Origin: Roseofilum halophilum BLCC-M91
GTDB taxonomy: Bacteria; Cyanobacteriota; Cyanobacteriia; Cyanobacteriales; Desertifilaceae
Direction of reading: 5' to 3'
Length of the DNA: 49,980 bases
NCBI RefSeq assembly: GCF_030068445.1
Contig: NZ_JAQPOK010000155.1
Span: 1 to 49,980 of the forward strand
The position numbers and the translations under genes were made by a program. The notes beneath the pieces were generated by a model. It worked only from the letters and a program-made list of their open reading frames with translations, ran no database searches and was not told where the DNA came from. Shown in pieces: positions 46,823-49,980 of this stretch. The first letter of the stretch is position 1, and every line of letters begins with the position of its first letter.

Positions 46823-47599
46823 ATGCTCAATTTAACTGGAAAAAACGCGCTCATTTTAGGAGTTGCCAATAACCGCTCCATCGCTTGGGGAATTACCCAA
46901 CAACTCCATCAAGCGGGAGCTAACTTAGGAATTACCTATTTACCTGACGAAAAAGACCGCTACCGCAAAAAAGTCCAAGATTTAGTCTCTCCCCTCAATC
47001 CCAGCCTATTTATGCCCTGTGATGTGCAAAACGACGATCAGGTGGCCGAGATGTTCGAGACGGTGAAAAAAGAATGGGGCCATATCGATATTCTGATTCA
47101 TTCTTTGGCCTTTGCTGGTAAAGATGAACTCACGGGAGACTTTAGCGAGACCACGCGCTCCGGGTTTCTCAAGGCCATGGAAATTAGCACCTATTCTTTA
47201 ACTCAGTTGTGCGCTCAAGCCAAAACCTGCATGGCTGAAGGGGGTTCGATTGTTACCCTGAGCTATTTGGGTGGCGTAAAGGTCATTCCCAATTACAATG
47301 TCATGGGTATAGCCAAATCAGGTTTGGAAATGAGTGTGCGCTATTTGGCTGCTGAATTGGGGCCGAAAAATATTCGCGTGAATGCTATTTCTTCTGGGCC
47401 CATTCGCACGTTGGCTTCTTCAGCCGTGGGGGGGATTTTGGATATGATTAAGCATGTGGAAGAAATTGCTCCCCTACGACGGACAGTGACGCAAACGGAA
47501 GTGGGAAATACGGCTGCGTTTCTTTGTAGTGACTTAGCTAGTGGGATTACGGGGCAAGTCATCTATGTGGATGCTGGATATGAAATTATGGGCATGTGA
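46823..47599 (+). CDS. fabI: Enoyl-[acyl-carrier-protein] reductase (NADH)
   Basis: A 258-residue short-chain dehydrogenase-type enzyme for the last step of fatty-acid elongation. It has MLNLTGKNALILGVANNRSIAWGI with the FabI-specific nucleotide loop, IDILIHSLAFAGKDEL, and the catalytic Tyr-x6-Lys in NYNVMGIAKSGLEMS, then NAISSGPIRTLASSAV and a C-terminal GQVIYVDAGYEIMGM. It lies opposite ntcA and converges on the contractile-tail operon, leaving 49 bases before that operon's last stop. Confidence 0.97.
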   Translation: MLNLTGKNALILGVANNRSIAWGITQQLHQAGANLGITYLPDEKDRYRKKVQDLVSPLNPSLFMPCDVQNDDQVAEMFETVKKEWGHIDILIHSLAFAGKDELTGDFSETTRSGFLKAMEISTYSLTQLCAQAKTCMAEGGSIVTLSYLGGVKVIPNYNVMGIAKSGLEMSVRYLAAELGPKNIRVNAISSGPIRTLASSAVGGILDMIKHVEEIAPLRRTVTQTEVGNTAAFLCSDLASGITGQVIYVDAGYEIMGM

Positions 47600-47648
47600 T
47601 CGGAGTGAATCGTTGACCGTGGCAAGGTCAAAAGCGAGGATCGCAATT

Positions 47649-47801
47649 TTATTCAGGATTTAGCATCTCGGCAATTTGTACGACCCATTGCTGACGCTCC
47701 TGATGGTCTAAGGCTAAAATTTCGGCCCTCGACCAGTGAAAATGAAAGGCGATAAAGGCTACCTCCCGATACAACTGGGGTAGGGGGTAGCCGGTTGCTC
47801 C
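47649..47801 (-). CDS. DUF6760-like tail protein segment, probably made by -1 frameshift from the upstream chaperone gene
   Basis: This frame encodes GATGYPLPQLYREVAF, then IAFHFHWSRAEILALDHQER and QQWVVQIAEMLNPE, about 50 residues. From memory it resembles the small DUF6760 proteins of contractile injection clusters. There is no ATG, GTG or usable TTG upstream in frame: the frame is closed by TAA about 40 bases before this point, and only an ATT lies between. It overlaps the end of the chaperone gene in the -1 frame. At the junction, a run of five G (47800-47804) is followed 7 bases later by a 10-bp stem (47786-47792 with 47757-47763, plus 3 inner pairs). This suggests a fusion protein made by ribosomal slippage. 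A rare ATT start is the alternative. Confidence 0.65.
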   Translation of the reverse strand, partial: GATGYPLPQLYREVAFIAFHFHWSRAEILALDHQERQQWVVQIAEMLNPE

Positions 47802-48115
47802 CCCGACATCCCTAATTCTGCCTCCCCAGGGTTAATGCTGTTGTAGAGATCGAGGAGGTAGTCTAAATCGATCAGAAACAAGTTTTCTAAGGCTTCTGGG
47901 GTGACTAAGGGGAGTGTACCCAGTTCGACTATGGTGCGCGAGAGCATGACGAGAGGGCGATAATCGGGGTATTCGGAGAGGTTCGGGTGGCGATCGCCAA
48001 TTATCTCATCATTCCCCGTTGCCAAACGGATCGCTCCTTCTCGATGTACAGTTCCTTCCTCATCCACCAGCCCTTTCGGTAAGACAAACCCAAACCCCAT
48101 GGAATCATCACTCAT
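47759..48115 (-). CDS. Phage-tail assembly chaperone-like protein (TAC_7/gp41 type), second copy
   Basis: A 118-residue protein. Its core (FVLPKGLVDEEGTVHREGAIRLA, then NDEII, LVMLSRTIVELGTL, ENLFLIDLDYLLDLYNSIN) matches the preceding gene in order and spacing, showing tandem duplication. It resembles tail assembly chaperones of Mu gp41/P2 E type and the equivalent proteins of contractile injection systems. The last 16 residues (MSGEQPATPYPSCIGR) have no counterpart in the first copy and lie over the alternative frame, so they are probably only read when no frameshift occurs. It overlaps the first copy by 8 bases. Confidence 0.75.
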   Translation of the reverse strand: MSDDSMGFGFVLPKGLVDEEGTVHREGAIRLATGNDEIIGDRHPNLSEYPDYRPLVMLSRTIVELGTLPLVTPEALENLFLIDLDYLLDLYNSINPGEAELGMSGEQPATPYPSCIGR

Positions 48116-48413
48116 TCTCTACCGGTTCCAACTCATTAATCTGACGATAAAAATCCTGAAGATAACCTAAATCTACAGCAAACATATTTTCTACCACTGC
48201 CGGGGAAATTTCCTGTAGGGTTCCCAACTGCACAATCACCCGCGCCAAAATAATCACCGTCGCATAAGCCGGATTATCCATCACCCTCGGATCGCGCATG
48301 GGGATAATTTCATCCATAGCGCGAGATAAGCGCATCCGTCCCTGACGGTGCAGATTTCCATCGGAGTCTAAATAGCCTTTCGGCAACGTAAAATCAAACT
48401 CAGTTTGCAGCAT
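48108..48413 (-). CDS. Phage-tail assembly chaperone-like protein (TAC_7/gp41 type), first copy
   Basis: A 101-residue protein: FDFTLPKGYLDSDGNLHRQGRMRLS, then DEIIPMRDPRV, IILARVIVQLGTLQEIS, VENMFAVDLGYLQDFYRQINEL. In phages such proteins coat the tape measure during tail assembly. No clear Shine-Dalgarno is seen. Its ending NE-stop overlaps the next ATG, pointing to coupled translation. I place it in the tail family from the LPKG...DEII...LGTL pattern and from its neighbours; a search would be needed to settle the family. Confidence 0.75.
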   Translation of the reverse strand: MLQTEFDFTLPKGYLDSDGNLHRQGRMRLSRAMDEIIPMRDPRVMDNPAYATVIILARVIVQLGTLQEISPAVVENMFAVDLGYLQDFYRQINELEPVENE

Positions 48414-48463
48414 ATCATTTTTAATTTTTTCGGCTGTCGCCTTTACTGAAAATTTTTAATTGT

Positions 48464-49066
48464 TTACGGCGGCGAAATTCGCTTAAACACCTCACAAGCC
48501 ATTTCCAACTCTTCACAAGCAAGTTCGGAACTCGAAGCCGTATTATCCGTGACACTATAGCTGATCGGCCAAGCATTTTCAAACTGAAACAGAGCGCCAA
48601 TATCCCCATTCTGACGATAAACGGCGATCGATCCATTACGGCGCTGTTTAGCCCAATCCCCCTCTTGCACCGCATTCAACCAATTCCAGAGGGTTTCCGA
48701 ACCACTTAACCCCCGTCTAAGACTAATATTATCAATCGTTGTTTTAGCCCCAGGAAGTTTAGAGGTATAGAGCATTCCCCGCTTGGCTTTGCCCCAAGGT
48801 TCCGGGAAAACTTCCGTAAATTCAACGACTTCTTGAGAAACTTTGAAGCCTTTACACTCCATAAATAACCCATCCACCCCATCCTTAGAGCCATCTAAAT
48901 ATAACTCCACATAAAACCGACAAGCCGTTAAAATTTCCGCCAAGTCCCGTTGAATTGCAAAGGCATCTTTGCCCCGACTCGAAAATCGAGAAGAGATATT
49001 AGAGCGTTGTCTACTCGGTTGGCGTTGGGATCGATTCAGATTGGGAAAACGAGAAAACATAGGCAT
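48464..49066 (-). CDS. Contractile-tail tube protein, T4 gp19-like, with basic N-terminal extension
   Basis: A 200-residue protein. From about residue 40 it follows the gp19 tube fold: ILTACRFYVELYLDGS, FMECKGFKVSQEVVEFTEVF, LPGAKTTIDNISLRRGLSGSETLWNWL, IAVYRQNGDIGALFQFENAWPISY. The first 40 residues are rich in Arg, Ser and Asn (FPNLNRSQRQPSRQRSN), unlike the other tube gene. A longer second tube-like protein often serves as the adaptor between tube and spike in injection systems (Afp5 type). The ATG at 49066 is preferred to a TTG at 49078. It is 50 bases upstream of the first chaperone gene. Confidence 0.82.
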   Translation of the reverse strand: MPMFSRFPNLNRSQRQPSRQRSNISSRFSSRGKDAFAIQRDLAEILTACRFYVELYLDGSKDGVDGLFMECKGFKVSQEVVEFTEVFPEPWGKAKRGMLYTSKLPGAKTTIDNISLRRGLSGSETLWNWLNAVQEGDWAKQRRNGSIAVYRQNGDIGALFQFENAWPISYSVTDNTASSSELACEELEMACEVFKRISPP

Positions 49067-49085
49067 AATTAAGATCAAATCTACT

Positions 49086-49139: not shown

Positions 49140-49640
49140 TTATACGGCTGGTGCTGGTGCTATGCTGGTTCCTTCCGTTGGCACTTTTCTAATCCCCGTA
49201 TGGCTAATTTCTATGGTTTCCTTGAATAAATCTGCGCTATCTGCGCCCGCCTGAGTTGTGGTATATTTTGCGGGGATAGCTTGTATTATATTGTACCTCG
49301 CCCCTTCCGTTCCATCCTGCTTATAGATCACTAAAGAAGCATCTCCAGAATCTGCCACAGCATTTGTTGTTCCCCCAGTCATGGATGAGGGATGAGAGCT
49401 GGTATACCAGTTAATTAGAGCATCATTTTCGACGGTTGTCACAAACTCTAAGGTCATATTCTCATAGCTGACATGAGAAGGGGTAATTTGGGTTCCAGCC
49501 GCCACATTTTTCCCGGCATAAATGGCTTGTCCTTCGGCTGCGGGTTCAATGCTCATGGAAATGCCACTGACTTTTTGTAATTGTAGGGTGGTAATGCCCT
49601 TCAATTCAAAATAAAACCGGGCTTGGGTCAAATACTCCAT
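49140..49640 (-). CDS. Contractile-tail tube protein, T4 gp19-like
   Basis: A 166-residue protein: YLTQARFYFELKGITTLQLQKVSGISM, PSHVSYENMTLEFVTTVENDALINWY, ASLVIYKQDGTEGARYNIIQAIPAKY and FKETIEISHTGIRKV, the gp19/Hcp-like tube pattern found in contractile injection systems. It lacks the basic extension of the next gene, so it is probably the main inner-tube subunit. AGGAG lies 8 bases upstream of the ATG at 49640. The sheath, spike, baseplate and AAA genes are not in the window and should lie beyond 49980 or elsewhere. Confidence 0.85.
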   Translation of the reverse strand: MEYLTQARFYFELKGITTLQLQKVSGISMSIEPAAEGQAIYAGKNVAAGTQITPSHVSYENMTLEFVTTVENDALINWYTSSHPSSMTGGTTNAVADSGDASLVIYKQDGTEGARYNIIQAIPAKYTTTQAGADSADLFKETIEISHTGIRKVPTEGTSIAPAPAV

Positions 49641-49885: not shown

Positions 49886-49980
49886 AAAACCATTTTTTAC
49901 GCTAGAGTGCCCATTCTTCAGGCTTTTCATGGGACAACACTCTCAAGGAACATTTCGATTACTGTACCTCATAACATCGA

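Follow-up and report, generated by a model that had tools for sequence, protein, structure and literature searches.

The tail assembly chaperone gene examined here very likely carries a programmed -1 frameshift like that of P2 E/E', retained in cellular contractile injection systems, by which the chaperone would be joined to a DUF6760 extension. Frameshifting of this kind has so far been described for phage tails. What we infer, from sequence alone, is very probably a known kind of frameshift that is very widely conserved and that occurs in a cellular machine with its own signal. The sequence layout, homology, conservation, freezing of codons and compensatory changes in a downstream stem are shown by the data below; the tests for a slippery sequence, a covarying downstream structure and an overlapping -1 reading frame without its own start were each met.

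The window, by which we mean the whole stretch of DNA analysed, is 49,980 nt from Roseofilum halophilum BLCC-M91. The 0 frame of the locus encodes a tail assembly chaperone of 118 aa (47759-48115, minus strand) that matched phrog_508, "tail assembly chaperone," at E = 3.8e-5. The -1 frame encodes the DUF6760 extension (47649-47804, minus strand), which matched PF20546 at E = 2.6e-12 (47.1 bits against a cut-off of 27). An initial annotation had described the two frames as a tail assembly chaperone and a DUF6760-like domain, and both identities held. Its count of 50 residues for the -1 continuation held only in part; there are 51 residues plus a stop when counted from the first Gly. The -1 frame is open from 47831 to a TAA at 47651-47649, and another TAA lies directly upstream of 47831. 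No ATG or GTG was present in this frame ahead of the conserved domain; an ATT is located upstream of the slip site and a single TTG (47774) lies within the domain. The claim that the frame is closed upstream by TAA and has no normal start was thus upheld.

A second chaperone paralogue without a DUF6760 extension (48108-48413, minus strand; TAC profile, 133 bits) has a stop codon that overlaps the start of the gene with the putative frameshift. Two tail tube proteins (Phage_T4_gp19) are encoded at 48464-49078 (PF06841, E = 6.6e-24) and 49140-49640 (PF06841, E = 8.8e-19), both on the minus strand. Only these two tube genes fit within the contig, which stops at 49980; the rest of the injection cluster is outside. 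A locus of the same genus (L296) has three tube genes, a sheath, a Pvc16-type protein and an AAA ATPase beside the DUF6760 locus, and we therefore regard the window locus as part of a contractile injection cluster.

The slip heptamer is G_GGG_GAG (47798-47804, minus strand), with 0-frame codons GGG GAG, and is kept across relatives. Its run of five Gs (47800-47804) is read TCG GGG GAG in the 0 frame. A spacer of 7 nt (47793-47799), in the same register throughout alignment A5 (below), separates the G run from a stem on the same strand, in which the 5' arm GGCTACC (47786-47792) and an inner CCC (47783-47785) pair with the 3' arm GGTAGCC (47757-47763) and an inner GGG (47765-47767), leaving a bulged A at 47764. 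The 0-frame stop TAG (47759-47761, minus strand) lies inside the 3' arm. The positions initially assigned to the chaperone reading frame, G run, spacer, stem, bulged A and 0-frame stop all held to the base.

Folding of the 42-nt hairpin gave -17.9 kcal/mol with a z score of -3.16. The z score of a 57-nt segment was only -0.70, which is unremarkable, and in same-genus locus L033 the minimum-energy fold differed from the hairpin (z 0.03), with only the centroid corresponding to it. The energy results are mixed, and the evidence for the hairpin is conservation, not folding energy. An Rfam scan of 47500-48500 returned nothing but one sub-threshold match away from the junction. This was a RAGATH-32 match at 48163-48243 on the minus strand, inside the first chaperone gene (21.8 bits against a cut-off of 41.8), and is likely due to chance.

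Relatives were gathered by DUF6760 protein similarity and not by means of the G run. The domain was present in 139 of 388 genomes of the window's order, where matches were taken down to E = 5.0e-8 and weaker ones (e.g., G052, G143, G187 and G346) were left out; G038 entered the set later, as L175. Left out were L010 and L027, which duplicate L039 and L046, L145, whose domain is truncated, and a second L128 fragment. A further search contributed only the six loci that were not already in the set (L159, L166, L167, L170, L171 and L175). Of 35 plasmid records, 19 were used; the other 16 came from two species that the set already covered. From 576 named genome loci, the 80 best by protein similarity were taken, and another search added 18. 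The 148 within-order loci and 123 others made 271 loci, with 252 junctions distinct by 120 nt. One locus outside the counts, L298 (G165:C403), has GGGGGA, a chaperone in the 0 frame and the stem. Loci from the window's order were placed with the cyanobacteria; phylum labels were taken from record titles, and misbinning is possible since several are metagenome bins. The sampling is without Bacteroidota systems (AlgoCIS, MAC) and PVC/AFP.

The same layout was found in 233 of the 252 distinct junctions, hereafter the main class, which was defined by a G run no shorter than five at the codon pair of the slip site, a chaperone in the 0 frame and a 0 frame open through the site; DUF6760 follows in the -1 frame. 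These junctions come from 11 bacterial phyla (cyanobacteria and ten others), one archaeal bin and 8 viral-labelled contigs. Cyanobacteria account for 151, Actinomycetota for 24, Chloroflexota for 20 and Pseudomonadota for 18, with 3 each from Nitrospirota and Deltaproteobacteria-type records and one each from Bacillota, Spirochaetota, Gemmatimonadota, Acidobacteriota, Planctomycetota and a Methanophagales archaeal bin. The same slip site also occurs in plasmid records. A cyanobacterial injection system, as initially suggested, was correct but too narrow a scope, as the signal spans many phyla.

GGGGGAR, with the 0-frame pair GGG GAR, was the site in 201/233 main-class junctions, and the rest mostly had longer G runs; the run was exactly five Gs in 198/233 and six to eight in 35/233. 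In 201/233 the 0-frame stop started 7 or 10 bases downstream of the site's first base; it comes later in the window, where it falls inside the stem. Among the 148 unique within-order loci in which the start of the domain is complete, GGGGGA sat exactly at its first two codons in 139 and one codon earlier in four more. The remaining five were four in-frame fusions without a G run (L040-L043) and L122 (GGAAAA). Alignment of the junction in related clusters had been proposed as a check of the frameshift; the G run, spacer and stem were kept in the relatives, and start codons mostly were not.

Selection at the RNA level was apparent from the codons. In main-class junctions outside Actinomycetota, Gly0 was GGG in 203/209. 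Tyr5 was TAC in 203/208 compared to 31% elsewhere in the same genes, Glu13 was GAG in 206/209 compared to 33%, and Val14 was GTA in 198/202 compared to 24%. This freezing persisted in the 178 junctions whose 0 frame stops at or before the first stem base (TAC in 172, GAG in 176 and GTA in 169), and dual coding therefore does not explain it. Residue 4 was an NGC codon (Gly, Ser, Cys or Arg) in 205/209 junctions; the presence of Gly or Ser there is partly explained by the first base of the stem often being shared with the 0-frame stop.

The six core pairs of the stem form in 148/151 cyanobacterial junctions and in 48/50 other main-class junctions, counts that leave out Actinomycetota and viral-labelled contigs. 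Compensatory change from C-G to U-A was observed in L124 and L274, and in L188 (Treponema) two pairs were swapped with changes of Tyr to Arg and Val to Ala in the protein. Alignment A5 held 74 of 86 selected rows, twelve having been removed by hand (L002, L005, L006, L185, L186, L198, L199, L218, L246, L262, L263 and L266); one of these, Rhizobium L185, breaks a core pair. Across the 74 sequences, 8 of 12 stem pairs had changed on both sides, and the covariation score was reached by 0 of 500 shuffles and exceeded that of every slid register. Counting further pair types, which was one of the five measures of covariation, gave no excess over shuffles (202/500). The shuffle counts are not probabilities because the sequences are related. 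RNAalifold recovered the core stem unaided. Among the 24 actinobacterial junctions, 4 form the main stem, 13 form a shifted stem and 7 form neither; the shifted stem pairs GTACGC with GCGTAC in those 13 distinct junctions and reaches 10 bp in L268.

Start codons in the -1 frame were scarce. From 20 codons before the site to residue 8, 129/233 junctions had no ATG, GTG or TTG at all. The -1 reading frame opens no more than two codons before the slip site in 17 junctions, and directly at the G run in L104, L131 and L150; in L104, where it opens at GGGGGA, none of these start codons is among the first ten. An ATG or GTG at residue 2-3 was found in 19/24 actinobacterial, 15/151 cyanobacterial and 2/20 Chloroflexota junctions, and coupled or ordinary initiation is therefore possible in those junctions. 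In Actinomycetota this codon adjoins or overlaps the 0-frame stop, and only 4/24 junctions there lack any ATG, GTG or TTG. A normal start codon with a Shine-Dalgarno sequence in homologues had been named in advance as a result that would refute the frameshift; a codon that could serve as an ordinary start is present in those 19 actinobacterial junctions, and 129/233 junctions overall have none nearby.

Current annotation treats the chaperone and DUF6760 as two genes. RefSeq places the DUF6760 start directly after the slip site, at ATA in L180 (Nostoc UHCC 0926) and at ATT in L183 (Pseudanabaena ABRG5-3), at position 1507 in both. For L189, no DUF6760 gene is listed, in an incomplete gene table.

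By profile comparison, the DUF6760 domain is a homologue of the P2 E' extension. A profile of 31 DUF6760 members aligned with the P2 E' extension by hhalign (probability 92.4, E = 5e-7), and Phage_P2_GpE was matched by 11 of the 31 members (best 6.7e-4), not including that of the window. The likeness to P2 E/E' noted initially is thereby extended to homology of the extension. The chaperone part of P2 E did not align with the chaperone profile by hhalign (probability 0.2). Of 30 scanned chaperone members, 28 matched phrog_508 and 13 gave a weak match to Phage_TAC_7 (best E = 0.0011), with none for the window protein. A search of phage records by tblastn with one query found no DUF6760 match, and blastn of the 60-nt junction against plasmids returned nothing.

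As here, the order in phage P2 is sheath, tube, and chaperone with extension, and the E' record is annotated as made by a -1 frameshift, as we propose for DUF6760. The annotated P2 shift site, in contrast, follows six Ts, whereas a frozen G run and stem are present here, in cellular injection systems. Conserved -1 shifts have reportedly been found in the lambda G/GT, P2 E/E' and Mu gp41 chaperones (Xu, Hendrix and Duda 2004). Lambda G/GT likewise pairs a short chaperone with a -1 extended form, but lambda is a siphophage and its slip site is other than G_GGG_GAR. The lambda slip site is G_GGA_AAG. Neither lambda form is present in mature virions (PMC5009743). GGGGGAA sites (the "fivetwo" motif) occur in chaperone genes of SEA-PHAGES phages, for which G-U re-pairing has been proposed (PMC10885494). 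These share the slip motif and the re-pairing idea with our junctions; however, they are phage genes, and the passages bearing on them mention neither DUF6760 nor a conserved stem. In E. coli, the strongest heptamers are X_XX.A_AA.G (PMC4066793), unlike G_GGG_GAR.

The contractile injection systems of Anabaena, Streptomyces and Algoriphagus have the same cluster type (sheath, tubes, Pvc16-like cap and AAA ATPase in L296). The words "frameshift" and "chaperone" were absent from the searched main text of PMC8894136, PMC10066040 and PMC8894135. We also considered whether DUF6760 might be the spike plug of these systems (Cis6/Alg6). This identity is unsupported, because a PDB sequence search with DUF6760 and the chaperone gave no contractile injection system chain at E<=1. 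Such an absence may be what is expected of assembly factors missing from the finished particle, but it proves little.

We propose that two proteins would be made from one start. Most ribosomes would read the chaperone to its own stop; some would pause at the hairpin, and the tRNAs on GGG GAR would slip one base back to GGG GGA. This would be a tandem slippage in which tRNA-Gly re-pairs on GGG and tRNA-Glu re-pairs on GGA through a G-U pair at the middle position, as suggested for the phage GGGGGAA sites in PMC10885494. The shifted ribosomes would continue into DUF6760 and yield a chaperone-DUF6760 fusion. By analogy with lambda G/GT and P2 E/E', the short and long forms may act together in tail assembly, with the shared part as chaperone and the extension bringing in a further component of the tail, for example the tube. 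Sequence comparison supports the -1 frameshift that was first suggested, yet there is no translation evidence; that ribosomes shift, how often they do so and what the two forms do are all inferred.

There is more than one possible alternative. DUF6760 could be a separate small protein with a normal or rare start, coupled to the chaperone stop. In favor of this are the ATG or GTG at residue 2-3 in most actinobacterial junctions, the listing of DUF6760 as genes of its own in RefSeq, and the Haloferax and L286-L292 junctions, which resemble separate genes. Against it, no ATG, GTG or TTG is nearby in 129/233 junctions or in the first ten codons of L104, and a separate start leaves both the frozen G run and the frozen downstream stem unexplained. 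As a general explanation it is very unlikely, but in Actinomycetota coupled initiation stays a serious possibility. Slippage during transcription of the G run, with bases added or dropped and the frames thereby joined in a share of the mRNAs, is also very unlikely. The G run is kept and has six to eight Gs in 35/233 junctions, but there are just five in 198/233, and the stem at a fixed distance, together with Glu as the next 0-frame codon in 201/233, fits ribosomal slippage better. The splitting of a single gene by misassembly, an indel or pseudogene formation is all but excluded even though in-frame fusions exist (L040-L043), because the -1 layout is shared by 233/252 junctions and five same-genus genomes (L033-L037), and the indel restoring a single frame that had been named as a refuting result is thereby ruled out for the window.

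Ribosomal -1 frameshifting thus remains our preferred reading. In a bolder form of it, which we consider likely, the element of G run and hairpin predates the spread of these machines across phyla, the stem has been kept at the cost of conserved amino acids, and DUF6760, instead of being free, completes a pair of chaperones controlling length or assembly that is bypassed only where chaperone duplication permits in-frame fusion of one copy.

The 19 junctions outside the main class were three fusions, L122, L182, six with problem chaperones, L286-L292 and L293. In the fusions, chaperone and DUF6760 are joined in frame and the G run is gone (L040-L043, from G037, G192, G060 and G136; 3 distinct junctions in two lineages). 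All four fused loci adjoin an unfused chaperone paralogue, which is consistent with a need for both forms. That fusion requires a paralogue is not established. The link is suggestive only, because just two lineages are involved, at least two chaperone matches occur in 86/271 loci, and any paralogue outside the fetched flanks would have escaped notice. Loss of the stem in every in-frame fusion was only partly true; L040 and L042 keep it, L041 has a G-U pair and L043 has lost it. L122 has GGAAAAG in place of the G run, and L293/L294 have G_GGA_AAG in the 0 frame at or near the junction. In L105, L112, L128, L171, L190 and L271 the G run is present, but the chaperone was not found, is interrupted or N-masked, or lies in a different frame. 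Haloferax (L182), an archaeon, and seven viral-labelled junctions (L286-L292) have no G run, and their chaperone frame ends before or at the domain start; their DUF6760-like proteins are likely separate genes.

In the open-access literature searched, preprints excluded, there was no report of a -1 frameshift in cellular injection systems. Where frameshifts were mentioned, the context was a phage, the title of a reference or a mutation in an unrelated toxin gene, and papers within this literature without such a report included PMC12998442, PMC11566945, PMC3711429, PMC13222765, PMC10269795, PMC8718954, PMC9022992, PMC8528098 and PMC11915804. How cellular injection systems control their length, and which chaperones assemble them, is poorly defined. 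If our reading is true, knock-outs, heterologous expression and engineered systems that alter or recode the junction would be left without one of the two assembly factors, and the phage-tail frameshift would be a general feature of cellular machines, testable in Anabaena and Streptomyces.

Some minor observations were made among the relatives. A truncated second DUF6760 copy (L145, in G055) lies approximately 1.5 kb from an intact copy, and the DUF6760 frame of L128 (G221) is broken by a stop. Many relatives (e.g., L003 and L039) have a CPxC zinc-ribbon-like C terminus of the chaperone just before the slip site; this tail is absent from the window's own genus, and Zn_ribbon_4 was matched by 7/30 chaperones.
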